From contig NC_134026.1 of assembly GCF_964204645.1 (NCBI RefSeq), positions 558,001 to 622,000 on the forward strand: DNA of 64,000 bases. Direction: 5' to 3'. The notes under the pieces are model-generated. The model saw only the letters and a program-made list of their open reading frames with translations, made no database searches and was not told the DNA's origin. Positions 5,976 to 54,607 of the stretch are shown in pieces. The position numbers and the translations under genes were made by a program. This stretch comes from Tubulanus polymorphus. Lineage: Eukaryota; Nemertea; Palaeonemertea; Tubulaniformes; Tubulanidae. Each line of letters opens with the position of its first letter. The stretch's first letter is position 1.

Positions 5976-5989
5976 CCGGGTCTATGGAT

Positions 5990-8900
5990 CCACACCTGTC
6001 ATATAACACACATACGTATTAAGAGCCGTCTGCCGATTATTAACTGCCAAAAATATCGATTTCGAATGAACGTTCAGATAATATATGCTTATTGCTGGTT
6101 GTTATTATTATCGTTCAATAAGCTGCCTTTTAACTGGTCATACATAAGTCTGGAATATTTGAACAGAAACGTTGTTCAGTGATCAGTGTTTAGTGCACCT
6201 GCAACTTCAGCGCTGTTACAATAGAGCAAAAAACTCTTTTTTATATCGAATTTTTGTTTACAGGTTATTTTGCGTTAGATTTCTGGTTTTTTACGGTTTT
6301 AAACAGATGGATTTCGAACGAATTGTCGTGTCATACCTGTATCGACGTGTCACAGTAAACACAGTTATCAGATGGCATCCAATCTCTGACATCATCATCT
6401 TCCAGACCTAAAAATATCGAAAAATATATTCAACACCCAATGATATTGCGAGCAATTAAGTCAGTGTGGAGATTTTCCACCAACTTTCAAAATCCCTGAG
6501 TTCTCCATGTTATAACACAAAATTCCCCGAATGAATCCTGAGGAATTTCATGAATTGCATCCCCCCCCCCCCGAGTTATACAGGTCAGTGGCGCCAACCT
6601 GATAGAAGGGCTATCGACTCGATAGATGGCTCTCCATAGTTTAACTAATGATTTAGATCAGATGAATCTGGATTTTGATGCAATTTTGATATCATTAATA
6701 GGTCACACGACGATATGATGTTTAATGTGGATTTCTCCAAAACCGCATTAATTTCGTTGATCTCAGATGATCCAAATTTAGCCCGCTCTACTGAATCAAA
6801 ATTCTGAGCCACAAGGGCAAAAACTTGCCTCAATTTACTGAGAAATTGAAAAATTGAAGACCTTTCGCAAAACGCATCTATTCGTTAAAATTCGGAATTC
6901 AGACCTTTTCTGGTCAAACATCTTACGAGGTGTTGATAACATCGGTTTATTCCCTCGCGGCAAAAACTGACGTCAATTTCACAATTCGAGCTATTTTAAA
7001 ATATCATCGGAAATAGATTCAAATATTTATTTCGCTCGGGGCGAGTTTCGTAACGCGTTCGTTTAAAGGTATATCATCGTATTAATGTCGCAGCTTCAGG
7101 GCAAATACACAAAGAAGAAGAAGAAGAAGAAGAAGATACAGTGTAAGATTTAGAGTAAGAAATATCAACGATTCTTATACATTAAAAATGTATTCACACC
7201 GACGGACAGACAGACGGACGGACAGACAGACGGACAGACGAGGTTTGACTGGCTGTCGATGACTGGGCACACGGGGAATCATCGCACAAAGACAATCAAT
7301 ATATTTAGAATAGCTTCTATCCCAAATGTCACATGGTTATTCATATTTGTCCATTCAGTGGCTGTAAGTACGGCACTGTACACCGCGCCACTACTACATC
7401 TAACAGAGAAATAATCAATACAGACTCAACTCGACGACCCGCTATTTAAAAGCCCTCGATTTCGATCACTGGTTTGAAATACCCACCATTCGACGCACGA
7501 CCAGAGAGAGAGAGATGGCTGCCATACATTTTTATGAATGACTTATTTTCCCAAAACGTATTCGCCGTGGCGTTTGTCTTCTAACAAACGGGAGTAGTTT
7601 TTTATACGGAGAAGGGACGAACACGGGGTTCGTCGTCTTGTTACTTACTAGAAAACGGTTGTAAAAGATGATTGACTAAATCTCTGCCCAATAATGTCTC
7701 AGCAACGACTTCTAAACCTAAAAAATACAAATTCAAAACAATTTATTCATCATGAGCTTTTCTGGTATAAACCGGAGAAAGAGAAATCTGTGGGGAGGAT
7801 CCAGGGTGCTTCCCCCTTCCCCCAGATGGGGGGTACCCAAAACATCTGAAATGCATTGTCAACAAAAGGCGGAACAAATTCAAAACATCTTTGAGAATTT
7901 TTGATACATCTTATGAGGAATATTTTTAAGTACAACACTATATGCAATAAGTTGATTGGGGTTTCAGAATGTTTAAACGGATAAACATGAATATATAGTG
8001 ATATATTACGTTTGTGATTTAAATATCAATTTTCATCACATCTATTACCGAGCCGTACATCCATCACGCAGTAGTCTTACAAAAATATGGTTGAAAATGG
8101 TATCTATAATGCGCTTGAGTCAATCAGATGGCGTTAACTTCCTGCCCAAAAGGGGTTCACATTGTTCCCTGGAATTTCATGCTCTATTCAAGCGGTTTGT
8201 TACTGGGAATAGACATCATCGAGACAACGGCTTCTGATTTTATTTCTAAGATTGATCAGCTCTTGTTAGAGTTGATATATTTTTCACCGATGTAATATTA
8301 ATATAGCCCCAGACTGTAGCAGTCAGTGACTCAGCATTCATATATTTTTTGGGTGATCTCAGCGTACACGCAGCTATAAGCTCCATACTCTCCTCCATAC
8401 TCTCCGCTCTACTCTTCAGGGGAGTTTTATCTCATACATTTATTTTTAGTATCTTCCGCCGCAGTCAAAAACAGCATACCGAACAGAACCCCGAACAGAA
8501 CCGAACGAACGGTTATATTTATCTTGCTTATGTTTGGCATAAAGTTCTATAAATAGAACGAATTGAGGCAAACATGTGGGGGTCACATACATGCCATACT
8601 CTTTACTCAGCTTCCAAATACTTATGAACGCAGCAGTTTCATTTTGAGATCCAAAATTTCTCGGTAAATTTCATTTTCAAAATCAGAGACAAGTGTCAAA
8701 CAATGATTGTAAGGTATCGTATCATTCAGATATTCAGTTCTATCCTTTCACTTTACAACGAGAAATCATATGTGAATTTTTCGCCGGGATTCGTCGGTCA
8801 GTTTGAAATAGTAAGATACGACGATATGAATCATAAAATTTGCTTGAGAAAACAATTTCATACAGAGATAGCTCAAACTTCACACGGAGAGATTACATCT
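5990..8900. other. Intergenic region with microsatellites
   Basis: Holds an AAG run at 7112-7133, a GACG/GACA tetranucleotide tract at 7199-7240 and a C-run at 6561-6571. No gene could be supported on either strand. Confidence 0.5.
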
Positions 8901-8926
8901 ACCGAGAAAGTGGTAACACACAGCGG

Positions 8927-10416
8927 TGGTGTGGCGCGCTGGTATACCACCTACTGGGGGTACAGTGTGGCGCGCTGGTGTACCACCTACTCGTGGTACA
9001 GTGTGGCGCGCGCTGGTATACCACCAACTCGGGGTACAGTGTGGCGCGCGCTGGTATACCACCTACTCATGGTACAGTGTGGCGCACGCTGGTATACCAC
9101 CTACTGGGGTAGTGTGGCACACGCTGGTATACCACCTACTCATGGTACAGTGTGGCGCACGCTGGTATACCACCTACTCGTGGTACAGTGTGGCACACGC
9201 TGGTATACCACCTACTCATGGTACAGTGTGGCGCACGCTGGTATACCACCTACTCGTGGTACAGTGTGGCGCACGCTGGTATACCACCTACTCGGGGTAC
9301 AGTGTGGCGCACGCTGGTATACCACCTACTCGGGGTACAGTGTGGCGCGCGCTGGTATACCACCTACTCGTGGTACAGTGTGGCACACGCTGGTATACCA
9401 CCTACTCATGGTACAGTGTGGCGCACGCTGGTATACCACCTACTGGGGTAGTGTGGCACACGCTGGTATACCACCTACTCGTGGTACAGTGTGGCGCACG
9501 CTGGTATACCACCTACTCGTGGTACAGTGTGGCGCGCGCTGGTATACCACCTACTCGTGGTACAGTGTGGCGCGCGCTGGTATACCACCTACTCGTGGTA
9601 CAGTGTGGCACACGCTGGTATACCACCTACTGGGGGTACAGTGTGGCGCGCGCTGGTATACCACCTACTGGGGTACAGTGTGGCGCGCTGGTATACCACC
9701 TACTCGTGGTACAGTGTGGCACACGCTGGTATACCACCTACTCGGGGTACAGTGTGGCGCGCTGGTATACCACCTACTCGTGGTACAGTGTGGCACGCGC
9801 TGGTATACCACCTACTGGGGGTACAGTGTGGCGCGCGCTGGTATTCCACCTACTCGTGGTACAGTGTGGCACATGCTGGTATACCACTTACTGGGGGTAC
9901 AGTGTGGCGCGCTGGTATACCACCTACTCGTGGTACAGTGTGGCACGCGCTGGTATACCACCTACTGGGGGTACAGTGTGGCGCGCGCTGGTATTCCACC
10001 TACTCGTGGTACAGTGTGGCACATGCTGGTATACCACTTACTGGGGGTACAGTGTGGCGCGCTGGTATACCACCTACTCGTGGTACAGTGTGGCACACGC
10101 TGGTGTACCACCTACTCGTGGTACAGTGTGGCACGCGCTGGTATACCACCTACTGGGGGTACAGTGTGGCGCGCGCTGGTATTCCACCTACTCGTGGTAC
10201 AGTGTGGCACATGCTGGTATACCACTTACTGGGGGTACAGTGTGGCGCGCTGGTATACCACCTACTCGGGGTACAGTGTGGCACACGCTGGTATACCACC
10301 TACTCGTGGTACAGTGTGGCACGCGCTGGTATACCACCTACTCGTGGTACAGTGTGGCGCACGCTGGTATACCACCTACTCGGGGTACAGTGTGGCGCGC
10401 GCTGGTATACCACCTA
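8927..10416. repeat. 38-bp minisatellite, about 39 copies
   Basis: The unit is GTACAGTGTGGCGCACGC followed by TGGTATACCACCTACTCGTG, with variants (GCGCGCG, CACACG, GGGGGT, and short units ending TACTGGGGTA). Higher-order blocks of three to four units recur around 9760-10240. 38 is not a multiple of three, so each unit shifts the frame; the unit is stop-free in all phases and all three forward frames stay open (up to 588 codons). These frames are a by-product of the repeat, not a gene. The unit contains the self-complementary GGTATACC. Confidence 0.95.
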
Positions 10417-10419
10417 GCA

Positions 10420-13400
10420 GTTATATATATGTACATATATTTAATAATCTGAATCCATTCCAGATGTAAAAACTTGATGATTATCAATCTGTGCGCATGA
10501 AATTCCCAAATGATCATCGGCGAGATTTTTCTAGTTGGCTTTTGTAATTACGGAAGTATGCGGCAAATTAATGATTCACGAGACAACAGGGTATTTCAAT
10601 AAATACTGTACATCAAACCATTTACTTCTCAAACGCACACAACACAAACATTTAAACATGTTTTTACGAGGTTTTTTCATGGAATGCGAAATGAAGAGAT
10701 GACGTAATAGATTTCTCTCGAGTTATCGCAACTCGCCGCCGCATCAAATCTATATTTGACCCTCGCGTAAACAACGGTCTCTACCGACTAACGGTAAACC
10801 TTTAATTAAAAACTCGAGATAAAAAAGTCCCGTAATCAAAGGAAAAAATTATTCAATTATTTTCTCGATGCGTCGAAATCTCGCTCGACTTAAAAAGGCT
10901 AATAATGAAACTAATAAACGGGTGATGAAAAAAACGACGTCTTTCCGCACCAGTTCGGAAGTTTCCGGCGCCAGTTTCGAGAAAACGTGAAAATAATCGG
11001 AGCCAATCTTACCTTCATAGGACATCATGATAAAACAGTCACTACTACATCACAGGTTGAAATCAAACCCTGTCGTAGTCGTCGTTATAATAAAATACTG
11101 CACTCAGTCACTAGCTCAGCTAGCTGTGTTCTACACAGTCACTTTATTTTGATTGTTATAAAGGAATACAGCTGTACACATACAAACCCGAGCCAGCCTT
11201 ACACCGGGTCCGCAACAACTTATTTTATTGGCTCTACTTGATTAATTATCGACTCGAAGCAAAATAGAAATTTATAATGCTACATGAATTGAAGGGATCA
11301 ATGAATAGTTTGGGCTTCTTAAAACTACAGCTGTTGGCCCAGATATTTCCACCTATTGTTCACGACGCGTTGTTTTCCGAATTGAAACGTCACATTTTGA
11401 CATAATCCTTTATAGAATTTCTCTGCGTTGTAATGATATTCGTATCGATATAACTTCATTAATATTTCACGTAGCACAATAATATACAAACGAACGAACG
11501 AACGAACGAACGCCGAGTCCGAAATAAGATAAATTGAAGAAACGTAACCAGAAGAGAAAATAAACGATCGTCGACTAATGATTTACTATAACTCATATCC
11601 ATTATTGAACGTGTCAAAATAGATATTACCGATAGCAACAGATTCGATTCAACTATCATTTAAAAAAAACAAAATCAGCCGAGAAAAAAGGGTTTCATAC
11701 GACTGTCAACGAATGGCCTGTTTGTCTGACAGTAGCAATCATTGAAGACAGAACAGGTGAACCATCCACATGATATAGACAGACAATCAATGAATTGTTT
11801 TATAATACACTTCGCCATATTTATTTTAGTGGGATCACCTGGGGGCCAGGGGGGAGGGGGTCCGGGGGAGGGGGAGGTACTCATCCCCCACTAAATCCGC
11901 TACTGAGTTCCCCCCCACTGAGTTCCGCTATTTTGTGTCAAGTTTGTTTGGCAACATTTTTCTATCACTGATTGTCTTTTAGCCAAGTCTGCTGTTTAAT
12001 CCCTGTTGGTTTTTTAGTTTTCTATCGGGCTACAACAAATATTCACTGAAAATACATCTAAAATGCTTCAAACTTTGCAATAAGTCAAGGCCAACATCTT
12101 GATGTTTTCAGTTTATTTACATTCAGAGAATACCTCTAACTCGAGGCCTTTTCCTTCAATTCACTAACAATGGCCAGCAAATGCATTTAAAACACTTCAT
12201 ATTTGCTTATTTTTCTAGGAAGGACCCTAAACTCTAAACTCTTCAGGCCTGCAACAGTTACAGGCTACGTACGGGCCTGAGGATACAACCCAGAATGACT
12301 TGCCGATATTTGGTATTTAGTTCGGAATTTCCTCTCATATCTCGGGGTATCATTAAATATGATCGGGAGAGAAAAATTAATAACATCACAGAGAAAAAGA
12401 CTTTGGAATTAATTTCCAAATGATTTTTGAGATGAAAATAATCACAAAATTAGAATAGCCAAGTAATTTATATATATCAAAAGGTTGATAAATCGATGGC
12501 GCGGTGGACCGAACCTATCTTGAAATATCGATATCTGATCTCTGGAAATATCGAATTATTGAATCAGTGATGAAAAAAACTCCCACCTAAATCTAACAAT
12601 AGAAACATCTAAAATAAAATAACAAATTACTAATGAATCAATCGATAAATCTCTCAAGATGACACCAGCCCTTATCGCATGTTGCTCGACAATTACAATC
12701 TAATCTATGATTCAAACCGCTGAAGAAATATTTTTTCCTTTAAAATTGACTAATTTCTAACTAAACCAGCCCTTTACATTGAATTATAAATACTTCAGAC
12801 CGACGGCTATGTCATGAGACGGCCAATATTTCATTCTGAATTATAAGTAAGTTATCAGTAACTAATAGGCCAGTTTTACCAAAAACAGGACTAAAGGTCA
12901 CAGGTACATTTGAAACCTATACAAATATACCCATTTTTGATCGACATTACATCTAAATGCATATAGTCTAAATGATGGGTAGGCCGTTGTCATAGTATCA
13001 TTATGTGGCAATAATTCATTCACAAATATAACCCACAACATTCTTGAAATTACTTCTAAGTCAAAACTTGGATCAATTGAGGAGAAAGTTAATAAAGGAG
13101 TCAGTTCCAATGGGACCAAATATTTAGCGCAGTAGCCAGTACTAGGTTTCATACGTATGTCTAATTTAGAAGTATCATGTGGGTTAATTTTAGACTTGAC
13201 TCATTTTAACTCTTCAACTCAAGTTCAATAACGTAACCCACAAAATTGGATCCAAACATAATAAATACAACATACCCCGAAAGTGAAACAAATGAATACT
13301 CATATTAAATAAAACCAAAAACTAGGAAGTGAATGCTAGGATTAAATTTTTGCCAATTGGGACATAAATCTTTTGTTACCGTGTACCACAAACTTTCAAT

Positions 13401-19509: not shown

Positions 19510-19515
19510 TTTATT
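19510..19515 (-). promoter_or_regulatory. Candidate polyadenylation signal of the TIR-SLOG gene
   Basis: TTTATT on the plus strand, i.e. AATAAA on the minus strand, 28 nt past the stop codon at 19543. Confidence 0.5.
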
Positions 19516-19542: not shown

Positions 19543-22500
19543 TCACGATATCGTATTCGGTAAAATAAACGTCTTTATCGAACTGACTCTTTGCGGCCGA
19601 CGACTCAATCCTAGTTTACGTTTTCTAGTTTGATTCAAATTGTCTCTGTATAGTTTAAGAGTGAGTTGTAAGCTTTGTACGATTCGTGCTACGACTTGTC
19701 CGATCTTTTCCGGCGTCGCCTTTTTGTCGCTTAATACTGTCCAATCTTCAGCGGAAACTCCACCAGGAACCTGAACAAAACAACATCACATAGTAAATTG
19801 TCATTTTTATATGCATACTCCATCTGCTTCTTCAGGTAAAACAGGCTGGCACCACTTTGAATGAACAAAGTCTACTGTCCTCGACACCAAACTTTCTTTT
19901 TTTGGAAGTAACGTGCAAATCTATCATTTGAAAACTTACTTCGAATATTTTTTCCGGTACGTTAAACTTTCCGCCTGCTGCACCACCAGTCACACGAATA
20001 GGTATAACATTGTGATCGCTCCAAATGAACTGTTCAGCTTCGTGAGCCGCACCGGGACCACCTTCGGAAAAACATCGAAAATCAATTATTACATCACAGC
20101 AATATCAAAGACATGACGGATGAACTGATGTATTCTCAATGGTGAAAATAACGACGGATGAACTGATGTATTCTCAATGGTGAAAATAACGAATTATCCA
20201 ATAATTGATGATACCTAAAGTTTTCTATTCTGAAAGTATCGAGACCTCATAGGCGTCCCCAGGAATTTTCATAGGGGGTTCTAATTAGCATCAATCCAGT
20301 ATCCAAGCACAATGTCTGGTGTTTGGTGGGCCTCCCCCAAAAAACTTTTTGAAAATTGGAGGCTTTAGAGACATTTCCAGGCTCTAAATGAATCATTTAG
20401 ACGTAAAAGACTAGTTAAATTTGCAAGAAAAATCTTGAACATTGATTACATAGTATCTTGAGAAGTTAGTTATCTCGAAAAGGGGGTGCGTTCGCTACCC
20501 CGCACCCCCCTTGGGGACGCCTATGGATATATGTAAATCTCATCTACAGAGAAACAGTAATGATTACTTTAAATTATTACTGTTTCTCAAATCTCAAAAA
20601 TGTCAGATTATCAAAAACTTTTGATATCATCAATTGTGGAATCATTCATTTTCATAGCACATACCTTCTATTAATATACATATTTCGAATACTCGAGATA
20701 CAATAGTTTCTCTTTCTCTCACAGAATCACCACTAAATGCTGTACTTCCGTACGGAACAATCTGAAAGGTTTTATCTCTATTCTGTCTGGCTCTTTCCGT
20801 ACAATCCTACAACAAATATTCATCTTAACTATGACATATGATAAAACACGTGATAGATCACCTGATATGTTACTCATTTACACTCATTGACACTCATTTT
20901 ACTTAAGTATTTCATAACTACTTTAAACATTCGTAAGTTTCATAGTCCTGCAATGCAGCAATCGAAAGGTTTATTATATTCCCACCAATCGTCCCAGCTT
21001 TTAGCAGTATGAAAACAAGGAGAAACAACAAATATTGCAGATGTGAAGTAGGTCTGACCTTTTCATCTCTGACCGGTAAAACGTGCCATGTCGCCGGTGT
21101 CTTCTTCTCTTTTTGTCGTGCGTCGAAGAAGCTCTGACCGACGACATCTCCAATTCCGTAAAACCCACCGGTTACTATAGATACGTTATCCAGTTTAGCC
21201 AAGTTCTCACCAATAGCTCTACAATCAAACAGTGAATAAAGAATCAGCGAAAACTGTCAGTTTAAACAATCAAACAGTGAATAAAGAATCAGCGAAAACT
21301 GTCAGTTTAAACAATCAAACAGTGAATAAAGAATCAGCGAAAACTGTCAGTTTAAACAATCAAACAGTGAATAAAGAATCAGCGAAAACTGTCAGTTTAA
21401 ACAATCAAACAGTGAATATAAAATCAGTGAATACTGTCAGTTTAAACAATCAAACAGTGAATAAAGAATCAGCGAAAACTGTCAGTTTAAACAATCAAAC
21501 AGTGAATATAAAATCAGTGAATACTGTCAGTTTAAACAATCAAACAGTGAATATAGAATCAGCGAAAACTGTCAGTTTAAATGATTCAGAATCCATACTA
21601 ACTTGCAAATAGCTTCAGACTGTGGATAATAGAACCTCGTTCCACCAGATATATAAATACAACCTTCAGGATTTACAGCTTTCTTTAAAAGAGATACCTA
21701 CAAATATATGGATAAGGTGCTCATTAGTCAAGTATCTAGAAACCTGTAAGATTGTTTGGTATTCAGGGGTAAGTTGCACAAAAGTTGGTCAAGTTAAACA
21801 TTGGATCTATTATTCACTGGTTTAAACTCTTACAAGTCTTGGGTAGTTTCTTTAACTGACTTTTACGCAACATAGTCAGCTTTTGCCCGAAAATTAAGCA
21901 TTGAGAATGAAGCTGAGTTTGTTCACATCGCCAGCCAATCATGAACTGTGTCATTCCTGTGTGGCACTGTTGACAGAACCAGAAGTGCAAGTATATTCGT
22001 AGCCGGCAGTGAATGTGTTTTAACATGGATGTTCATAAGTAACTTACAGCTTTAGTGATTTTAGCTTCATTCACTTCCTCACTGACCATATCTCCACCGG
22101 TGGGATCTAACGCTCGAGCCACGCGACATACGAGAGAATCTTCATAACCCTCATACCGACAATTCTAACAAAAATCACAAACACAATACATTCATTATCT
22201 TTATAGCGAAACTTTGTCAGGTTGGCCATTTGTATTTCACTTGCTTTTTCCCTGACTTGATCTTTCTAAGAATCCTATCAATTAACACAGTAAAATATGT
22301 AAGATATAAATGGAAACTGTTTGATTTTAGATGGAATCTAGCAATCTCAACAAATTTCCCTGACGATTTTTAGTTCTTTACTAAATTCCCTGATTATTCC
22401 CTGAATCTTTTAAAGAAAAGAAATCCTTGACTTTTCACTGATTTCCAGGTAAGTGGCCAGCCTGATCTGTTAAAGAAATCAACAATAAATTGTTAAGGAT

Positions 22501-25500
22501 ACCTCAAGTGTACTGGTTCCGATTAACATACTCATCCAACCGGGCATACAAAACTCTTCATACTTTAAAGGTACAACTCGTTTCCTGTGCTCACAATAGA
22601 AAACCTAAAATGACAAACATGTCTTACGATTACGATTTTATTTACACTCCAACCATTTCCATGGTATATGGAGGAAAACTATTACACATGTATATACAAA
22701 TATTTACAAAACAACACTGAGTGAAGTGAATAAAATTTAGAGAATGAAAACGTAACAAAATATATATACATCAACTATTTACAATACTACCGGTATATAT
22801 ATACTATTGGAGGGATCTATATACATCTAAGCCGGTCTTAATGAATAGCATCAGTAAGGTGCTGCTATAATAGTGCGGTGGATAAACCGGTAACTAAACT
22901 AAAATTTAATACGTACTTGTTGTTTAGAAGTTTTTGAAGCAGCGAATGCCCTCGAAAGCACGAACACCACGGCTCCGGCTTCATCAGCTCGTTGTTGGAA
23001 AAGTTGTAAACGGTTTTGAGTTCCAATACTGCATGTAGATTCCTGACTTATTGGTGACAGGGGAATATCTGTAATTAAACATGGCAGAAATATCAGAATT
23101 CTCTGAATTCTCTGACTCTGAGCACAGTTTCAGGATATTCAATAATTACCATTGTCATCGCTGAGTTGAGTTTCGCGAGTGTCCTGTGAAAATAACGGCT
23201 CCTGACTGTCCATTTCAGTATCAGCATCGAGCATTTCCGTCGAGCACCAAACATCATAACCTTTCGCTTCAAACAATACCTTCAGTCTTTGACCCTGTAA
23301 GAGATAAATATAAACAGGTTTACCTCGGTATCTATTGAAATCGAACTGTCAAAATTCATTCTAGTTCATATTCGACACATTATGAAATATAAGGCATTGG
23401 ACTTTCGCTTTGGACTCGACCAATTCCAGAATCCTCTTTGTTTCATATAGAATACGCTCTACCTGTCTAGGAAAGGCAAAATCTGTAAACCTGATAGAAG
23501 CGGCCGGTAGAGAGTTTGTAATCTGTAAACCTGATAGAAGCGGCCGGTAGAGAGTTTGTAATCTGTAAACCTGATAGAAGTGGCCGGTAGAGAGTTTGTA
23601 AATTGTAAAACTGATAGAAGTGGCTGGTAGAAAGTTTGTAATCTGGAATCAATATTTCGGAACTGGGATACATTCGATCAAAACCTGCCTTATAAACCTT
23701 GGTTCACTTCTGAATTTTAGGTAAAATTATTCGCCACTATTACTTACAAATTCTTTCTGTTCTGGGTGTACTGATACGACTACTAGAGGTCTCATCGGTG
23801 GCTCCGTATTTGCATAGGCAGGCGAAGATACCCAACTGTAGCGAACATACGACGGCTAAAAATAACAATATCATAGAAACATATTTAACGAATTTGTTGT
23901 AAACTCACGCGCAGGAAAATCATTAGAATCAGAACGAGAAAATGAATTCAAATAATGAGAATGAACTAAATATCGCAGCATTAAAATAAGATCCCAATTA
24001 AGCTGTTATTATCGGTAAATGTAAAGGATTAGGTTGAAGGACATCGATAGAATTGATTTTATTCGTGATGGGTTTTCGTTCGACGTGTCGCGTTAAGCAC
24101 TAAAAACTAATACTAATAATAATAATAAGATTGATGAGAATTAAGATTCCGTTAAGATAGAGTTTCAAATACATAAAGTCAATACGGTATTGGTATTATA
24201 GAAATTATCACACATAAAATTATCACCACGGGAAGAGCAGAATTGATGGAATAGATTTAAATCTGAAGATCTGGAAGACATTGATGTAGGTTCATGAATC
24301 CAGAACAACATTTAAACCGTATTATGATTATGATTAGCAGCTCACTAGCGTGGGTTTCGAGTATTCAGTTCAGAGCAACTGCAGTTTAAATGATGTTATG
24401 GAGATCTAATTTGGTTAAATTCTAAATGACTCATTCCCAGCACTGAAGATGCTTATCAATCACCAATTCTGATTTCGCCCCCGGCTGAGAAGAAATCAAA
24501 GATTATAAAATTCCGGTATTGTTCGGGGTTTTTTTTTACTCATAGAATGTTAAAAATCAGTGAATGAAAAATGACCAGCACAACAGGACAGATATTATCT
24601 ATGGCTACCTTACGAGTATGCGGCGATAATCCATCCTGAAATAGGTATCATCAGGAATAAATTACCACACGGCAACATGAAACAATACGGAAGAGAGGAG
24701 ACGAAGGGCGGTCGAGGAATTACATCAAACGTCAGTCAGAATATCGAGTAATAATAATAATAATAATATTCAGATGAATGTAAAATACCTGTTTTTTCAA
24801 ACTTGTATGTTTTTTACCGGCTTTCACGTATTGTTTATAACGTTCAGCTAATTCTCGTGATACGACTTTATGAGTTTCTTCGTTTGAATTTACATCCTGA
24901 CTGCAACCGGTGTGATTTTGAGCTGTAAAATGACGAACGATTAGATTCCGTTCAGTAATGAGACCACAAAATGTCGGCTGTTGACTAACAACCATCAAAC
25001 TGAAATGCTTCAACTTTTTTAACTTTAAAATTCATGTTTTGCTTTTAACCCTTGCAGTGCTGACTTATCAACACCCTATAGTGCTGGAGATAATTTGAAA
25101 ATTTTGAAAAATTCCACCCTAGTGTGTTGAATTACAGGAGTACCACTATAGTGCGTCTACACCGCGGCGCGGTGTATCGTTAGTTACTAATATTTCACTA
25201 TGTTTGACAGGTGCTGCCATCTTTCAATAGAGATAAAAACTAATTAGTACTAGCAAAATCCATCACCGATTCATACACCGCACTGCGGTGTAATCGCACT
25301 GAAAGGGTTAATATGAAGAAATTCTGCTAAATCAAATCAAAATTTTCATCTCGGATATATATTCTTACAAGATCTCATCAAAGATATTTTACCTTTAATG
25401 CTTCTATTTCTCTGGTCGTTCGACCATTTGATAAACTGCGTCGTGGCAAACTGAATAGCAAGACATTTCGGGGGCCAAACATCTCCAAAATTCACCGGTA

Positions 25501-28500
25501 CTATCACTTTATTCAGAACATCGGCTAATTTCACCTGAAATTAAAACCAGACACAATTTGCAACATTTTATTCTTTATTGCGAATAGATCGACCTAACTA
25601 TTCTTTTTAGTAACGAAAATCTAAATTTTGACTCAGGCCATTCCAAAAACATGATTCCACACTAAATCCTGAATATCAAATTTTCTTTAACAAGATTGAA
25701 CTCCATTATATACAAATTTTATAAGAAAAAAACCCCAAAATTTATGTATTAAATTCATTTTTAAAAGACTCGAGTTTCAGACTCTCTCTAGACCAAAGTC
25801 AGGCATGGACAAGTACATAAATCGACAATGATTTTATCATCTATTTTCCACGTTAGAGTCTGGCTATGATAATATCAAATGTTCTATTTTCCTACCTCGC
25901 GATTGGTCCATTGAGTTTCACCGTAACTCTGAGTCACGAGTGGTACGAAAAGTTCACAGTTACTGACGGCATCGTTCAGGGCATCCTGCCAATCAATACC
26001 GGTTTTAATCTCGTGAATGTCCTGAAAAAAATACATGAAAACTACAGATGTAACAGGCTGTTTAAGAACAAGGTGAAACTAGGCTTTTATTCATACTGTT
26101 ATGGATATGAAACCAGTACAAAATGAATTTTACTGCACTGCTAATATGAAATCCCAGACGATGAATGTCAGAAATGTTTCCTTGGGCAAATATTCTTTCG
26201 ACATTTTGACTACAATTAGTCACGTTCAGGAATCACAGTCGTTATTACTAGAAGGCTTCCGTTCAAGTCTTGTCAAGTGGATAGATGTTTTCTATGCATG
26301 ATTTCGATCTTCTCTCATAGACAAACTTTAACTCATTTATTTCAACATCATCAAGATACATGATATTTTTGATATCACCAATAAAGATAGGTTGAATGTG
26401 AAAGCTTGCGTGAATAGAATATAGATGGTGCATTGAGCTACTTTTGATTATGTTACCGAACTCAGTTCACAGCATGTGGTTAATGATTCTTCATTTACAC
26501 CACCAGAACATAAATACCACGTAACCAGCACCAGCAGCAGCAGCGGCCGCTGCGGCCGCGGCGGCAACACTGATAGCAAACAGTGATGATGATTATTGTG
26601 TTGTTAGTGAAGAAGAAACTATTTCAAACCCAGCCACAACTAGTGTTGGTTTACGATGCTATAAACCTACGAGCAGAAATTGCACTAATAATATTTACGA
26701 TGGCAAAATGACAAATCAAAGCGCGGCAGGAATGTTTAGTAGCAGTATAATATATCCAACCACTTGCTTTCCATCTTAATGTTATGAATCAAATTGTTTT
26801 TTCTAGACAAAGAAACGAGTATCGCTTACAGTATGTTTGAGTACGGTACTGTTGTTGATATAACAGATACATATTTCTTAGTACTACAAATACCTCGCTA
26901 AATACAGATCGTACAGTGATTTACAAGAAAGCAGGACACAGGTCTTTCTTTGATCGGGAGTTTAAGTTAAAATCAGCCTATATAACAGATTCCAGGGCCC
27001 AGTTTCACAAAAAGGATTAAGACCTAAATCGATTTAAGATAAACTGAATTAATGAAGAAATTAAATCGATTTAAAAGTTAAAGCTTTTCATGAAACTGGA
27101 CCCAGGGTTAAATTTGAGACTAGATTTTAAATTGCTGGTAGTTCATTCCCAAACATTTGACTATAGCTTCAAATCTTGACAGGGTTAACCCTTTCTAGAC
27201 TGGGGCCATATTTAGTGGCCCCCTAAATCATAAATTTTGTACATCGATGAAATCATAATTTTCAACCATTTATTTCAGTTAGGCCTAAAGAGGACAGCAC
27301 CTTACCGAGTGAGTTTACCCGTAAATGTGATACGGTTGGAGTACGATGGGAAAGGGTTAATGCTGATTTACCGGTACTTACGAGATAGACAGTGAATCCT
27401 AATTCAGTGAGACAGCGTTTCAGATCTTGGGCGTATTGGGCAGCTTCGGCCCGTACGTAACTGATCAATATCTGATGAGACCTATTTGTACTCGACGGCA
27501 AACATTGTATAGTGCGTTCGGAATCTTTACTTGATCTGTACGTTCGTTGTCGACTGGGTGTCGATACTCTACAGAGAAAAATATAACAGACTTATTAAAC
27601 ATATATGTTCAACCTGAAGGAAAAGTTTCCAAACCTTTGATTGCTTTCCCTACAATTGAATTCAGGACCCAGTTCCACAGTTCTGAGTTTAGATTTAACT
27701 CAGAGTTAACTCATTGAAAATGAACTACCTTTAACTCAGAGTTAACACTAACTCACAACTGTGGAACTGGATCCAGGTAATTTGTGAATCATTTGGAACC
27801 AATGAAATTAAGTCGCTCGATGAGAAATGCAAATCATATTTCAAATTAATTCATGCATAAGCGGACCATGAATTAGAATGATAACTGAATTAGATCAAAA
27901 TCCAGATTGAACTGATCTGAATTACATGCGTTTGACAACCGAATCAAGACACATTTTCAATCATTTCATCTATGAATCTTCTATCAATTCATCTATTCAA
28001 TCTAAAGGAAGAAAATGATTTGCTAGTAAAAAACCACTCCTCACAGCTTCAGCCTCTCAACATACAATACGTTAGTAATCACGTCTTTATCTCATGAACA
28101 ATCCTTATCTAAGCAGAAACCAGAAACTAGCAATATCTATATCTTTATATATACATATATCATGTCATACAATATTACATGATATGACACAACAGTTAAC
28201 AAGAAACTATGATTACTCTCTCTCCTAGTCTAGTACCTAGCCGTTGTTCTTCCCCAAACAACTTGTTGTAGGGAACCTGTAACAACGACTGGTATTCAGA
28301 CTACTCTCTCTCCTCTCTCTCTCCTCTCCCCTCTCCACTCTCCTCTCTCCTCTCTCCCCTCTCCCTCCCCTCCTCAGATATAAACTTACTTTCTCTGTTT
28401 AGGTGTTAATACAGGAGTAGCTGGTGCTGATAATGAAGGCATTATTGCCGAGTATAAATTCGCCGTACTGCCCGGTGAACCGGCACTGTTACAGTCATCT

Positions 28501-31500
28501 GTCGTTATCTCATTCGAAAATACCTCGCCACAGATGCGAACGGATGCCTCGTTTAATATGTCTAATACTGCCATTTGATTCTCTTGGTCTTCGGATATCG
28601 GCCAACCGTTGCAATCAAGGAACTGGTAATTTGATTTTGCCGAGTCGCTTATGTGTCCGAGCTACAAGTAAAGTACAGATCATAAACACTTCAATCATTA
28701 AGATCAGAGAATCCCAAATTCCCTGATATTTCCCCGACCCTTGACCAGTAATTCCCTTATTAGATTATAAGATATCCTCAGTAATGCTGGTTCTAATCGA
28801 GAGGTTCCTCGCGCCACTCATCGACAGCGAGAAAAACAAGATTCATATTCCTTGAATTATTCCCTAATTTTTGGGAAACGAGTCCGAATTCACTAATTTT
28901 GCCAACAGGGAAATAATCTGGAATTCCCGAATTTCCCAGATCTGTTGGAACCCTTTAAGTGAAGCGATGAACTTTGTAAAGTTCATCATCAGGTCTGAAG
29001 GCAATTATACTGAGACAATCTTCATTTGCGAAGCCTTTCGCAGTGGTTTAGTTCAATTAGAATCTACAGTTTAACTTGAAGTCGCAACCAGTAAAATTAT
29101 AAAATTCATACAGAGAATTTTTTGTGGTTATATTTCACCTGTTCTTTGATTTCTTCTCTTAATACATTCAACGATGATGTGCTGTAGACAAAAACAAACC
29201 CTAGCGCCGAGCCAGACTGCATTTTAATTCCTACTCGAGGTTTCTCTGTAAAAATAGAAATAAAAATATTTTGATTTATAAACGATGAAAGCAGAAAAAC
29301 GTGTAGAGTTTTAAATCAAGCCGCAAACAAGTAAAAACATTTGCGAGTAAAAACATTTGCGAGAAGGAGGTGTAGTGGAACACGGGGGGGGGGGGGGGGG
29401 GAGGGGGGGAACAGATCGAGTTCTATATTCTCCAAAGAATAGGAAAGACAAGAGTTTATAGGGTTTATAGGAATGCTCGAGGGAAACATCAGGCAATATG
29501 AAAATCGATTATTTACAACTATCCATATTTCATAGACGTGATCTAAATATTCATCAGCATCAAATCTATATTCTATATTATAGTAAGACAAAATTGATCG
29601 AAAAAGAGTTTTAAAAAGTTCCCCTCGGAACTAAATACCTGAAACGACAAAACATTTTAATGCGTTGCAGCTCTGTTTCCCAGGGCAGCGAGATTGAGCT
29701 ATCATAGAATATCATTTATACCCATTAGCCAAATTTCTGGTAGCGTAAGAAAATCGGTTTCACGTTTCTTCGAGATCACGCAATGAATTCTATTCACAGA
29801 TATGACGCTGTTCGATCATTAAAAATTAGTCTAATTTCATGCTATTTTTATTTTGTGTGTATTTATTACTGATTGTTAACACATGGAGAGAGAGACTACG
29901 GAGAGAACAGGGGCGTGAGAGAGATTTTTGTCTTACATCTTATACGAGGTCTCTGACAATATGATTGACACGTTAGGATATACCAACAGGTGCCCTGGGT
30001 TTACCACAACGGTCCAGTTTCATAGAGTTAGAAAGTCAAGATTACCAATAAATATAGAGAGACCTAAAAACAATCAGACGGAGCAAGTTTTATAGACTGG
30101 TATTAAATTTAACCCGGAGGCTAATTCAATTCATTATAAATTGAGTTAACCCCTGGGTTGAGGATAATACCGATCTATAAAACCGGGCTCAGGCTATCAT
30201 CAAACTATTATTTTCTCTTCATTTTCACAATTCAGGGATCATTCCCAAAAAAAGTTTATCTCAGATTATGAAACAGATGTTTGATACATCATCAGTATTT
30301 TGATAATAAAGTAATAATCATATCATATACAAACAATACAGAACAGTAACTGATAAAACTGATTCTGTGTATAGTTCACTCAGACTTCTTAGAACGCAAC
30401 CAGAAATACAATACATGAAATGCCAAATAGCTTTTTGAAAGGTTGCATACACAAACTGTCGAATATTTTTTTCTGAATGCCAGTTGTCTCGCGGATCAGA
30501 ATAGAATAGTCTCGGGAAAGCCGGCGTTTTCTACAGAAAATTATATTCCCCAAAGTATTTAATGATGACATTGATGAAAGAAGAAAATGCTCGTTGCAAC
30601 AGTGGTGAATGTCTGCAATAATACATCATTATTCTCAGAATTGTATCCGCATTTTTCAACAATATTCAGAAAATACAATTGTATAACGCGCATAAAACTA
30701 GCATTCTCCGCAAGGTTATTTAAAGGGGCAAGCACCCATCGAAAATTTAGCCCCAGTTCAAAGATTTACTAGGTCTATGTGTGGACTTGTTAATGTTTTA
30801 TCAATGGTGATAAAAACTTCTTAAAGTAATGACATATGAACAAGAGTCTAAACTCTAGTTTATACGACTACAAATTGTAACAAATTTAAGCCTAATTCTC
30901 ACTATTCTGGGGAGATACCAGGATAAAAAGCTTTGAAACTTCGGCATTTGTTTGCATAATTTAATACGAAAAAAGAATGCAGCGTTTCTAGAATTACAGA
31001 AAACTGACTGTGATTGTATTGAGAATATCCGCGCAGGAAGCAGAGAAAAATGAGGCGTGATGTTTCAATTAATTACTGTTTCGTGTTTATAGAATTATGA
31101 ATATCACTGCTGTTTATCAGCAATGATAGAAATAAGAGACTGTTGAGATTGACTGTAGTAATTACACTATTCATACCGTAAGCTCGTTGTATTCTTACTG
31201 CGTTTTCTTTTGTAAGAATGTGCTTCAGTTTTAAGTTGTTCTCTTGATGCAGTAAAATTGGCCATCTGCAAAAAAAAAAACACCAATAGTAGGTAACACT
31301 TCATGATTTCAAATGGTAAAAACAGTAGACTCCATCCACTCAGTCAGATCTTTTGACTTGAGAGTGATATCTGAGTTGGATGGTACAGTAGACTCCACTC
31401 AGTCAGATCTTTTGACTTGAGAGTGATATCTGAGTTGGATGGTGCAGTAGACTCGACTCATGTCAGATCTTTTGACTTGAGAGTGATATCTGAGTTGGAT

Positions 31501-34500
31501 GGTACAGTAGACTCGACTCATGTCAGATCTTTTGACTTGAGAGTGATATCTGAGTTGGATGGTACAGTAGACTCGACTCATGTCAGATCTTTTGACTTGA
31601 AGAGTGATATCTGAGTTGGATGGTACAGTAGACTCCGCTCAAGTCGGATCTTTTGACTTGAGAGTGATATCTGAGTTGGATGGTACAGTAGACTCCGCTC
31701 AAGTCTGATCTTTTGACTCGAGAGTGATATCTGAGTTGGATGGTACAGTAGACTCCGCTCAAGTCGGTTCTTTTGACTTGAGAGTGATATCTGAGTTGGA
31801 TGGTACAGTAGACTCAGCTCAAGTCTGATCTTTTGACTTGAGAGTGATATCTGAGTTTGATGGTACAGTAGACTCCGCTCAAGTCAGATCATTTGACTTG
31901 AGAGTGATATCTGAGTTGGATGGTACAGTAGACTCCGCTCAAGTCTGATCTTTTGACTTGAGAGTGATATCTGAGTTGGATGGTACAGTAGACTCCGCTC
32001 AAGTCGGATCTTTTGACTTGAGAGTGATATCTGAGTTGGATGGTACAGTAGACTCCGCTCAAGTCAGATCTATAGACTTGAGAGTGATATCTGGATGGTA
32101 CAGTAGACTCCAAACTAAATCAACTCTTTCAGGACATCTGATATACCATCGGTAATTCGTTATTTGCCTCAGAAATGCAATATTCATAAGAAACAAGAGA
32201 CAAACAGTGCAAACTATTGAGGGTCATAATAAACATGAAATATCATCTTCACAATTGCGGCTGAGGAAAAGTGTCAGGCATGTCTCGTGCAGTAAACATG
32301 CAACACTAGCTATTGCACCAGATGGCGTGACTCCTAATGGGTTCATTTTATTTTAATTGAAATGTAGAACAAATCGAATGCAAAATGCAGGTGAACCTTC
32401 TACTTAGCAGAGTAGCAAGTTTCATTATAGCTCAGAATCATCTCATATTGAAAACAATGTAGAAACTAATTAGAATGTTAATATCACCAGGTGCTCGAAG
32501 AAAAGACCAATTCAGCCCCCTACTTAGCGCTGTAACAAGTTTCACAACAGGTGTTAAGAGATGATCATCAGTTCAGAATCGATCTAGTTATGAAAACAGT
32601 CGAAACGCGTTGTCACTTACCCCTCCTTGGTACGGAATGTGAAAGTTTCAGGTAGAGTAAAAAGTTGACTTTTCAGAATGTCACGAAACGCTGCCACAGA
32701 AATTGTGCGTGATTTAGCGAAAACGAAACCGAGAGATAATCCATTACTATCTGTGATTGTTTCATTAGTCAGCAGTACACCGATGATCCCATCTTCACCA
32801 TATTCATCATCTACAAATATTACATGAAGAAAATATTTAAAATAACAAAAATATCTTCACAAAATACGATGAAATCTGTGTATGGACCATAAAATCTTGT
32901 CGGATTCGGAGGAAGTAGTCCAGATCTGTTAGTCCGAGGTCAGTTGCGTAGTCAAAAAGCCCACATTTGTTCCAACAACTTAAAGCCAATTTCATGATTT
33001 TAGACAATTTTTTCATCCTTAGAAATGGCGCGAAGCCGACACCAGAAATCGTTATGAAAGATTTCTAATGTTACAATCAGTATCAGGTGATATCTGAGGT
33101 AGATCAGCTTTATCGTATAACATGTATCATAATAATCCCAGATTCGAAATAATGTAAAATTACGAATAAAAAAATTTCCACGACAACCCACGCAATGTTG
33201 CAAACATCATGAATAATTGCCTAGGACAACTTAAAATGTAATTATCACATGAATCTAATACCGACCCATCTATAGTGGTTACCGACCCATCTATACTCGT
33301 CTGATGGTTGGAAAACTCTAATATCATCTGACAGAAACAAAACATCAGAAACTGTCCTTCCCAAATATGTTCCAAGAACCCCAGAGGATGTGAGAGGAGT
33401 CCGAGAGTGCTTCCTAATGGACGGTAACCGCAATCATTAAATGTGATGAGGAATGACAAGATGAACCACGGTATCGTTAATGAAATTATCTTACACCATA
33501 AAACACAAACCAAGGCTACTAATTAAACCAGCAAAACACTTCAACACTCAAGGCGACACACCTGAAGACAATTCAGCCAAAAAATAACTTATTTTCAAAT
33601 AAATATAACGCACCTCATGTTGTAAGTTAACATTTCATATGAATTCCAAAATACTCATATTTATCTCTAAGTGAAGCCTGTAATTTGTACAGGATCGTCA
33701 TGTCCTGATTCCCTTTTCACTGACTAATTGCCAAAGTCGTTCAGGTTCATTTTCTGATTGTTAAAAGTAAAAATTTGGCAATTAATAAGAACAAGAAAAT
33801 TCATTTTAATAAATTATTTGACGCCTGCGAAAAAATGTAGTATTTCTGGGATAAGCTAATGTGGAATTGCAAATTTGAAATCGAAGTTTTAAGAAATTGG
33901 GGGAATAATTAGATTTGGCGATTGGGTAGATGATACAGGTCTTCGACTCTAGTAGTGGTTTAATTGTCAAAAAATGATAACTAATTACTCTATGGCTTAT
34001 TGTTGTTTACGCTTCCTGGATCCTAACATTCATTACTAGTTCACCGAAGTTTTATTCTATAATTCGTACATTTTGACAATTCCTATAAAAATCTAACTTA
34101 TTTAAAACTTGTAGCTCAGGTAAGTCGTGTAAATTCATTGGATCCCGAGACTTTGACCTATAATGACATCGATGATTTAATATCTGGGTTTGTATCATTC
34201 TAATATGCAGCCAGTTTTATTACCCTGGATATACATTAAAGGCAAACGTTTTGTTACCATACAAGGAAAAAACAGACATTCGATAGAAATTGGCCGAAAG
34301 CTATGATATGCATAGAAAAAAATGAAGGATATAGAAATGGCGGGTGTTTACGAGGTGTTGACGAGGGGAGTGGCTTTTCTGGATTCCCAACAGTATGCAC
34401 AATACAAGGGTGCGGTTTCTATCAATGAGATTAAAGTGATAAAGTAGATATCAGACTTCAAAAAAACAAAAACATCAAATACACTTTAAAAGCTTCATTA

Positions 34501-34995
34501 CACGCCCACGCGGCAACTAAATACCCTTAATCTAATAACGGATTCTACAGGCTTCTTTACTTGACCAAACATTTGACCTTGGATATTTTCATTCATGACA
34601 GTGATCAAGATCTTGATTAGTCTATTCGAGATAGCTACCAGTCAGCCATTTTTAGTAAAATTACTAATGCCCAAACAGTGATCTTTACTTCACAAAACCA
34701 GAGTTTTTTTAACCAGAATTATTTAAGATTTCTAGAGACAGAGATTAAGTCATAATGAAGGCTCATCCGAAGGAATGATAACATCTATTGACAGTAAATG
34801 TATTCAAGATAGCTGCCAGTCAGCCATGACGATTAAAGAGCTGGAACGGAACGCCTCACCGGTTTCTGCATCCTCATTAAATTTTCCGCAAAGTTGTCGC
34901 GCCAATTTCTGCGTCGGATTCTGTTGGTGACTGTTATCATTATTGTTCTGTTCACTGAATACTCCGCCCAACCAGAGCCAAGAGATCCAATCCAT
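19543..34995 (-). CDS. TIR-TIR-SLOG protein with N-terminal beta-grasp-like repeats
   Basis: Nineteen exons join in phase to 912 residues: 34860-34995, 32621-32810, 31177-31265, 29139-29245, 28390-28661, 27382-27568, 25896-26021, 25393-25534, 24789-24922, 23748-23855, 23150-23294, 22917-23068, 22503-22589, 22048-22164, 21603-21697, 21059-21218, 20665-20806, 19940-20061, 19543-19770. Residues 54-138 and 142-225 are two copies of one beta-grasp-like domain (LGFVF...R..I..QL...F...GWPI..QEN). TIR1 is about 296-415: ILISYV box at 298-303, then TQSYGETQWTNRE with E369 where TIR NADases have the catalytic glutamate. TIR2, about 483-625 (PLVVVSVHPEQKEFGQRLKV; VVFVLSRAFAASKTSKQQ), lacks it. SLOG spans 665-845: ISGGTR (680-685), VTGGFYGIGD (711-720), GGPGAAHEAE (797-806). 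A basic tail follows. Start chosen at ATGG (34995) because in-frame stops lie just upstream. Function inferred: NAD-derived nucleotide production and/or sensing. I do not know a named ortholog. Confidence 0.85.
20114..20189. repeat. 38-bp direct duplication (two copies)
   Basis: GACGGATGAACTGATGTATT plus CTCAATGGTGAAAATAAC occurs twice in tandem in the intron between the 19940-20061 and 20665-20806 exons. Confidence 0.8.
20248..20525. mobile_element. MITE with 14-bp perfect terminal inverted repeats
   Basis: CATAGGCGTCCCCA (20248-20261) and TGGGGACGCCTATG (20512-20525) are exact inverted repeats bounding 278 bp without coding capacity. A second inner palindrome (GGGGGTGCG...CGCACCCCC) lies near the right end. 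A target-site duplication could not be fixed. It sits in the same intron of the TIR-SLOG gene. Confidence 0.65.
21221..21582. repeat. 45-bp minisatellite abutting a splice acceptor of the SLOG exon
   Basis: Eight copies of a unit containing CTGTCAGTTTAAACAATC and AAACAGTGAATAAAGAATC. Read on the gene's strand the unit contains CACTGTTTGATTGT, which is also the sequence directly before the AG of the acceptor at 21220-21219. The array fills most of the intron between exons 21603-21697 and 21059-21218. Confidence 0.9.
23480..23650. repeat. 40-bp minisatellite, about four copies
   Basis: Unit ATCTGTAAACCTGATAGAAG plus CGGCCGGTAGAGAGTTTGTA, degenerating in the last copies. In the intron between exons 23748-23855 and 23150-23294 of the TIR-SLOG gene. 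Confidence 0.85.
25045..25311. mobile_element. piggyBac-type MITE (copy 1)
   Basis: A TTAA at 25045-25048 is followed by CCCTTGCAGTGC, and GCACTGAAAGGG precedes a TTAA at 25308-25311. TTAA duplications with CCCT...AGGG ends are the signature of piggyBac-superfamily insertions. The 259-bp interior is non-coding and holds the palindrome ACACCGCGGCGCGGTGT. In the intron between exons 25393-25534 and 24789-24922. Confidence 0.75.
26440..26782 (+). pseudogene. Possible gene relic with Ala/Ser run, unknown family
   Basis: Inside a TIR-SLOG intron, on the opposite strand, two frames look like protein. One gives ELSSQHVVNDSSFTPPEHKY leading into a Ser run. Through the GCAGCAGCAGCGGCC tract the frame shifts to an Ala run followed by NSDDDYCVVSEEETISNPA and CYKPTSRNCTNNIYDGKM, ending at a stop near 26779. 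No start codon, splice site or poly(A) tail is clear. I do not recognise the family. Either a frameshifted fragment of a retrocopy or chance. Confidence 0.3.
26995..27106. repeat. Palindromic MITE, family 3-related (copy C)
   Basis: GGGCCCAGTTTCAC at the left and TGAAACTGGACCCAGG at the right are inverted, with inner AAATCGATTTAA palindromes. Similar in design to 27665-27774 but the internal sequence differs. Confidence 0.55.
27185..27360. mobile_element. piggyBac-type MITE (copy 2)
   Basis: TTAA (27185-27188) followed by CCCTTTC, and GAAAGGG followed by TTAA (27357-27360): the same end signature as the element at 25045-25311, with a different 168-bp interior. It ends only 22 bp from the donor side of exon 27382-27568. 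Confidence 0.65.
27665..27774. repeat. Palindromic MITE, family 3 (copy B)
   Basis: GGACCCAGTTCCACAG and CTGTGGAACTGGATCC are near-perfect inverted repeats; inside, ACTCAGAGTTAACTC-type sequence repeats in both orientations. In the intron between exons 28390-28661 and 27382-27568. Confidence 0.7.
28296..28380. repeat. CT-rich microsatellite
   Basis: Irregular TCTCTCC/CTCTCC tract ending about 10 bp before the donor of exon 28390-28661, as read on the plus strand. Confidence 0.85.
28703..28960. repeat. Dispersed repeat family 2 (copy C, fullest)
   Basis: Carries CCTGATATTTCCCC, ATTATAAGATATCCTCAG, GAGAGGTTCCTCG and GAATTCCCGAATTTCCC in order. Shared with 1257-1440 and 3752-3935. In the intron between exons 29139-29245 and 28390-28661. 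Confidence 0.45.
29383..29408. repeat. Poly-G tract
   Basis: A run of 18 G with one A interruption afterwards, in an intron of the TIR-SLOG gene. No function seen. Confidence 0.9.
31323..32112. repeat. 60-bp minisatellite with internal hairpin, about 13 copies
   Basis: Unit AGACTCCGCTCAAGTCGGAT, CTTTTGACTTGAGAGTGATA, TCTGAGTTGGATGGTACAGT. Most copies contain the perfect 8-bp inverted repeat CTCAAGTC/GACTTGAG around a 9-nt loop. 60 is a multiple of three, so both strands read open, which is not evidence of coding. In the intron between exons 32621-32810 and 31177-31265. Confidence 0.95.
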
Positions 34996-54294: not shown

Positions 54295-54607
54295 TTTTCT
54301 GCTGTTTCTACTATGTATGTCGAAAGCTAATTTCTTTTTTTTATTTTCTAATTCTCAGAGTGGAGGCACTAGCAACTCAAATCATACGTAGCCATAAAAT
54401 ATCAGAGTCTGGTCCCGGTTGAGTTTGTGTTGAACCGATGTTGAATTCGTTCGTTTAGAAAATTTTAGGTTCAAAGTAAGACCAAGTTTTCGGTCGGGTC
54501 TGAAATTAAGACACCAAAAAACTCTCGAATAATATCAATAATAACTCATCACTTTTGAGACCATCTTATTATTAGTTTATGAGATTATAAGAATGATTAA
54601 AACTTAC

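Follow-up and report, generated by a model that had tools for sequence, protein, structure and literature searches.

The window analysed here is the whole 64,000-nucleotide (nt) stretch of the Tubulanus polymorphus genome given above, which lies on our contig C2, and our subject is a gene on its minus strand, running from position 34995 to position 19543. Rebuilt by hand from the sequence, the gene has 19 exons in one continuous frame, joined across 18 GT..AG introns with matching phases, and encodes two N-terminal repeats, two TIR domains (TIR1 and TIR2) and a C-terminal domain predicted to be of the SLOG type. Its features are listed below with the evidence for each.

34860 to 34995, minus strand: exon 1, with the start codon; residues 1-46 (frame; TAA 6 nt upstream)
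31177 to 32810, minus strand: exons 2-3 (32810-32621, 31265-31177); N-terminal repeat 1, residues ~50-139 (frame, repeat comparison)
28390 to 29245, minus strand: exons 4-5 (29245-29112, 28661 or 28622 to 28390); N-terminal repeat 2, residues ~139-232, and linker
25393 to 27568, minus strand: exons 6-8 (27568-27382, 26021-25896, 25534-25393); TIR1, residues ~305-425 (Pfam TIR_2, SARM1, ThsB)
25896 to 25898, minus strand: Glu378 of TQWTNRE, which pairs with the catalytic Glu of SARM1 (alignment)
24789 to 24922, minus strand: exon 9; linker between TIR1 and TIR2 (frame)
22503 to 23855, minus strand: exons 10-13 (23855-23748, 23294-23150, 23068-22917, 22604-22503); degenerate TIR2 (TIR_2, 28.2 bits)
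22048 to 22164, minus strand: exon 14, in phase 0 at either end; last part of TIR2 and the linker to SLOG (frame)
19543 to 21697, minus strand: exons 15-19 (21697-21603, 21218-21059, 20806-20665, 20061-19940, 19770-19543); SLOG, residues ~679-880, C-terminal tail and stop
19510 to 19515, minus strand: AATAAA, likely polyadenylation signal (sequence)

The introns span 81-2049 nt. Minisatellite arrays lie within some of them, at 31335-32111 (a 60-nt unit, 13 copies), 21221-21581 (45 nt, 8 copies) and 23480-23645 (40 nt, 4 copies). The product has 926 codons if exon 5 begins at 28661, or 913 if the inner acceptor at 28622 is used, and the 913-residue form agrees better with the homology of the N-terminal repeats (KKFS/FLDCNGWP). 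A preliminary description, made from the sequence, had claimed 19 exons in consistent phases that encode one chain of 912 residues. The rebuilt model bears out the exons, the phases, the single open frame and the outer coordinates; the length is corrected to 913 or 926 residues.

Could this gene be an artefact of modelling, in which a TIR gene and a neighbouring SLOG gene have been wrongly joined? The model rests on genomic sequence, and two acceptors were picked by fit to the repeats or to the frame, namely those of exon 5 and of exon 9, whose start at 24922 is required for the frame. Against such a join, exon 14 carries both the end of TIR2 and the start of the SLOG linker and is in phase 0 at either end, the intron that follows it has 350 nt, and the ATG at 34995 (with an in-frame stop before it) and the AATAAA, which begins 27 nt past the TGA ending at 19543, bracket the whole gene. 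We therefore regard the artefact as very improbable. A rough estimate of the chance of the frame staying open is (1-0.068)^927, or ~5e-29, a figure that overstates the case since exons were picked for openness; the domain matches are independent of it. In the reconstructed model, then, the TIR1, TIR2 and SLOG parts belong to one animal gene and one predicted chain. A search of the animal's own genome (267.8 Mb in 77 contigs) with the whole protein returned 20 matches, of which 19 candidates were scored (all such counts are lower bounds); it found the gene's own 19 exons and one further match, a TIR on contig C11, and no second copy of the TIR-SLOG gene.

The two N-terminal repeats are 38% identical to each other. 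They have no match in the PDB and no significant match in Pfam, and no relative of them was found. The TIR domains of the preliminary description are supported by Pfam, strongly for TIR1 and barely for TIR2. TIR1 matches TIR_2 over residues 307-418 (E = 3.2e-23 over the whole chain) and the PADLOC model of ThsB, PDLC00434 (E = 8.1e-12), and its closest PDB relative is SARM1 (E = 1e-6). In the alignment with SARM1, DWVHKE pairs with QWTNRE of TIR1, such that the catalytic Glu falls on Glu378 and the nearby Trp is also aligned; this catalytic glutamate of SARM1, the counterpart of Glu378, is E642. Because that Glu is retained, chemistry on nicotinamide adenine dinucleotide (NAD) by TIR1 is plausible. 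TIR2, searched as a fragment, scores 28.2 bits against the TIR_2 cut-off of 28 (E = 2.9e-6). It reads SKTSKQQ in place of TQWTNRE, so that the Glu of the W-xxx-E motif is kept in TIR1 alone and stands as Gln at that site in TIR2. No PADLOC model matches TIR2, the profile of the bacterial operon TIRs described below fails to recognise it (-2.3 bits), and as a query it matched 0 of 6009 bacterial frames. Since TIR2 is without the active-site Trp and Glu, just one of the two TIRs is likely to be a maker of nucleotide signals. The preliminary description had placed maker and sensor types of domain in one chain, which the TIR1 and SLOG matches favour and which does not extend to TIR2. A cyclic ADP-ribose isomer as the product of TIR1 and as the ligand of SLOG would be conjecture, as would a part in immunity or cell death, so that the earlier interpretation is borne out in part.

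Many animal TIR proteins are adaptors, and this protein might be another, with both TIRs acting through protein contacts and SLOG a structural leftover. Both the loss of the active-site Glu from TIR2 and the want of an effector domain by Pfam would fit. TIR1, however, has the catalytic Glu, and the 26 chains that it matches in the PDB up to E = 1 belong to SARM1 and to TIRs of bacteria and plants, none of them to a Toll-like receptor (TLR) or MyD88; furthermore, SLOG retains the Ser, the Glu and probably the Arg of a nucleotide pocket, as set out below. We consider an adaptor role unlikely. Elsewhere in the animal's own genome many TIR frames of ~770 codons resemble Toll-like receptors, as far as can be judged, while a locus at C11:7171700-7173400 (L097) carries two TIR frames that, among the own-genome TIRs compared, come closest to TIR1.

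The identification of the C-terminal domain draws on profile matches, on a fold model and on a comparison with ThsA sequences. As a fragment, the domain scores 21.8 bits with the Pfam model STALD (cut-off 24; E = 1.4e-4) and 20.6 bits with LDcluster4 (cut-off 26.3; E = 3.7e-4); within the whole chain the scores are 17.9 bits (E = 0.0023) and 16.8 bits (E = 0.0054). PADLOC models of ThsA (STALD) match it at 3.5e-4 and 4.4e-4, one of them across most of the domain. Thus four related models from two libraries find SLOG at E = 1.4e-4 to 4.4e-4. There was no PHROGs match, and phmmer against PDB sequences gave nothing relevant. A fold model computed with 49 bacterial SLOG rows has a mean predicted local distance difference test score (pLDDT) of 70.7 and a predicted template modelling score (pTM) of 0.69, with strands alternating with helices, and the top PDB match of this model in Foldseek is the SLOG domain of BcThsA with 3' cyclic ADP-ribose (3'cADPR; E = 7.5e-6). 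In VIA-align, where rows up to 1 Z apart count as tied, the model reaches Z = 14 with PpnN, 14 with a molybdenum-cofactor carrier, 12-14 with ThsA, ~11-13 with LOG and ~10 with TRPM. By this model the C-terminal domain has a Rossmann-like SLOG fold, which sustains the earlier claim that a SLOG domain is present. A profile built from seven ThsA sequences gives the animal SLOG 13.4 bits (E = 0.019 among 7007 sequences); the 21 sequences that outrank it are bacterial SLOG genes, and 1000 shuffles score no higher than 3.7. A STALD search of the own genome, which reads exon by exon and for that reason missed even the TIR-SLOG gene, returned nothing; its controls were likewise empty.

The pocket offers a further comparison. 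The conserved STALD pocket residues of BcThsA are Ser288, Phe357, Arg371 and Glu403, according to PMC7272460. In our own reading of the alignment, the Ser (in ISGG) and the Glu (in GAAHE) of the animal SLOG are aligned with theirs, the Arg (in RERE) lies within one residue, and the Phe is replaced by Leu. The SLOG of TRPM type (LSDAT) was considered and rejected by sequence, as LSDAT_euk, PF18139, does not match the chain up to E = 1; elsewhere in the own genome this model matches 15 times, at four loci.

Another possibility is that SLOG is a LOG-like N-glycosidase acting on the product of TIR1, to process it or clear it, so that maker and eraser would share one chain. EGGPGAAHE resembles the LOG signature, PGGxGTxxE, with an Arg upstream. 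The nucleosidase PpnN and the LOG proteins are among the top structural matches (Z ~11-14), and PMC9503650 proposes that some SLOGs attack the ribosyl-adenine bond, which would suit such an enzyme. However, the animal SLOG has Ala where the signature has Thr and Glu in place of its first Pro, Foldseek ranks first the SLOG of ThsA, which is a sensor and not an enzyme, and LOG-type Pfam models have no match at E up to 1 where STALD and LDcluster4 do. An enzymatic SLOG is in our judgement doubtful.

Of the identification of TIR1, TIR2 and SLOG as domains we are highly confident. The best explanation of the protein as a whole, to which we give a probability of roughly 0.5, is that two repeats, a catalytically equipped TIR1, a TIR2 without an active site and a SLOG domain form a chain in which SLOG would gate TIR1. 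In known biology SARM1 is such a protein, in which a sensor domain gates a TIR NADase. We propose that TIR1 would cleave NAD+ once chains cluster via the N-terminal repeats and TIR2; that SLOG would bind an NAD-related nucleotide, be it ADP-ribose, a cyclic isomer, or nicotinamide mononucleotide (NMN) or NAD+ itself; and that SLOG with its nucleotide bound would turn the NADase of TIR1 on or off. The output would be loss of NAD+, an ADP-ribose signal, or both. The overall logic would be that of a SARM1-like, sensor-gated TIR NADase assembled from Thoeris-type parts. The pairing of bacterial TIR1 relatives with SLOG genes, in one case within a single chain, speaks for this reading. The gating mechanism as such we hold with slightly less assurance than an even chance.

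Several points weigh against this explanation. Animal TIRs are often adaptors, as mentioned. SLOG misses the curated Pfam cut-offs, including the 24 bits of STALD, PF18185; folded as a single sequence it attains a pLDDT of only 42, and the 49 bacterial rows may steer the better model, for which reason the sequence-only test with the ThsA profile was added. The single aligned stretch of that profile covers SLOG residues 40-85 at E = 0.54. In PMC10022894, 3'cADPR is held by ThsA Lys388 together with Arg371 and Glu403; the loop that bears Lys388 is absent from the animal SLOG, so the ligand may differ. Finally, the case for gating is built on sequence and predicted structure, and the output of the mechanism is guessed, because no effector domain is seen: up to E = 1, Pfam finds no SIR2, macro, channel or nuclease domain among the 926 residues.

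Thoeris invites comparison, being an antiviral system in which the TIR protein ThsB makes an alarm signal that ThsA, a SIR2-SLOG protein, senses. The likeness is that TIR1 matches ThsB models and that the animal SLOG matches ThsA models weakly in sequence and also in fold. The animal protein differs in being one chain as opposed to two genes, in having no SIR2 match, in missing the Lys388 loop, in adding N-terminal repeats and a degenerate TIR, and in its host, an animal. Thoeris in one chain is ruled out, as SIR2, the effector half of ThsA, has no Pfam match. SARM1 is likewise an animal TIR NADase, and its active-site Trp and Glu align with TIR1, but the TIR-SLOG chain has no Pfam match to ARM or SAM and has instead a SLOG and a second TIR. 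TRPM proteins share with it an animal origin and the SLOG fold (Z ~10); the TIR-SLOG protein has no channel match, and by sequence its SLOG is of another family. The ecTIR-DC proteins of invertebrates, as described in PMC6321704, resemble it in being animal TIR proteins that are not TLRs.

Bacterial TIR-SLOG signalling is well studied, and the well-known animal TIR enzyme is SARM1. An animal chain that combines a catalytically equipped TIR with a SLOG would offer a direct test of whether, and for what, animals read TIR-made nucleotides. In the accessible portions of the open-access SLOG and TIR literature (PMC9503650, PMC7159879, PMC10022894, PMC7272460, PMC11204291, PMC10952713) we met no animal TIR-SLOG protein; the 2015 survey of SLOG families may mention such fusions.

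Relatives of TIR1 in bacteria were sought with TIR1 alone by tblastn against 72,556 plasmid records; 37 had a match, the best at E = 5e-10, and the loci of 18 were inspected. At 11 of the 18, TIR1 matches a TIR protein of ~390 residues whose gene has a SLOG cluster 3 gene directly after it. No SLOG was seen at the other seven, in three of which (L110, L111, L115) the TIR frame extends beyond the sequence inspected. An alignment of TIR1 with five operon TIRs, used as query on bacterial genome contigs, gave 135 stretches, of which 104 were confirmed and 80 kept. When these 80 are taken with the first five plasmid loci, 84 of 85 have the SLOG gene immediately after the TIR gene and in the same orientation; in the exception, L013, the contig ends just past the TIR. 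This proportion measures the fixity of the operon and not its frequency among relatives of TIR1, the query having been made from operon members. We have thus newly found a bacterial TIR family, near to TIR1, that is fixed directly ahead of a SLOG gene.

The operon TIRs share 26-31% identity with the animal TIR1. At loci L011-L090, which come from several bacterial phyla and from plasmids, a ThsB-like TIR gene of ~390 codons is followed by the SLOG cluster 3 gene; PADLOC calls the TIR ThsB, and the two SLOG genes that were run against it matched none of its models. Of the 82 operon loci with enough sequence, 48 have a small TIR gene immediately upstream, and a ThsA-like frame is also near four of the 85 (L045, L065, L072, L074). 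In a metagenome-assembled genome of Succinivibrio (L079:4010-6055), a single frame of 682 residues holds TIR and SLOG cluster 3 fused (Pfam E-values of 3.6e-19 and 4.2e-37, respectively), and another SLOG cluster 3 gene follows at 5986-6672. Close as they are, the operon TIRs are not the sole kin of TIR1: the plasmid proteins L109 (Bernardetia) and L110 (Kovacikia), each with three TIR matches, outscore them in total with TIR1.

It is possible, from these sequences, that the animal gene arose by fusion of a bacterial TIR-SLOG operon. The operon (PADLOC PDLC00434 with Pfam PF18180) resembles it in having a TIR near TIR1, in the order TIR then SLOG, and in the Succinivibrio fusion. In a tree of 36 TIR rows, from which the fragments L099 and L100 were excluded, TIR1 groups with the operon TIRs, the plasmid TIR L114 and L097 of the own genome, apart from SARM1, at a support of 85/90, which is below the tool's mark of 95/80. 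As query, the animal SLOG found 2 of 6009 bacterial frames (E = 0.035 and 0.054), both of them operon SLOG genes. The operon differs, however, in that the profile of its SLOG fails on the animal one (3.7 bits, E = 2.1): 1 of 929 scored shuffles and ~19 unrelated bacterial frames do better. PF18180 (SLOG cluster 3) has no match with the animal protein at E up to 1, and hhalign aligns the two SLOGs over 43 columns only, with probabilities of 5 and 16%. In the ThsA profile search the animal SLOG falls in the score range of the cluster 3 genes. Because the animal SLOG goes unrecognised by the cluster 3 profile, descent from the operon is unproven. It has a functional counterpart, in which the protein would be a one-chain animal form of the bacterial defence operon, inherited or acquired from bacteria, with an ADP-ribose-type signal from TIR1 read by the fused SLOG as a self-sensing immune switch. 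This we think improbable, and we prefer the sensor-gated NADase without commitment to such an origin.

Close relatives of the animal SLOG were not recovered by a pattern scan of bacterial genome contigs (0 of 21 stretches), phages or plasmids, of viral contigs (0 of 87 stretches), or in 398 and 297 genomes at E = 0.001 (0 in each set), all searches without a positive control. At E = 0.01, one of 394 genomes gave a match of 57 residues in a frame with stops, which was judged noise. With ThsA as the query, 0 of 14 stretches on viral contigs were confirmed; a STALD search in 249 genomes of one phylum found two, which were taken as ThsA examples.

Two further frames were noted in the window. On the plus strand, 8628-10469 is a frame of 613 codons with a weak match to gag p24 (E = 1e-4, under the cut-off) and is probably a retroelement. 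On the minus strand, a frame of 761 codons at 52069-54354 lies in a GC-richer stretch and matches nothing in Pfam at E = 0.001.

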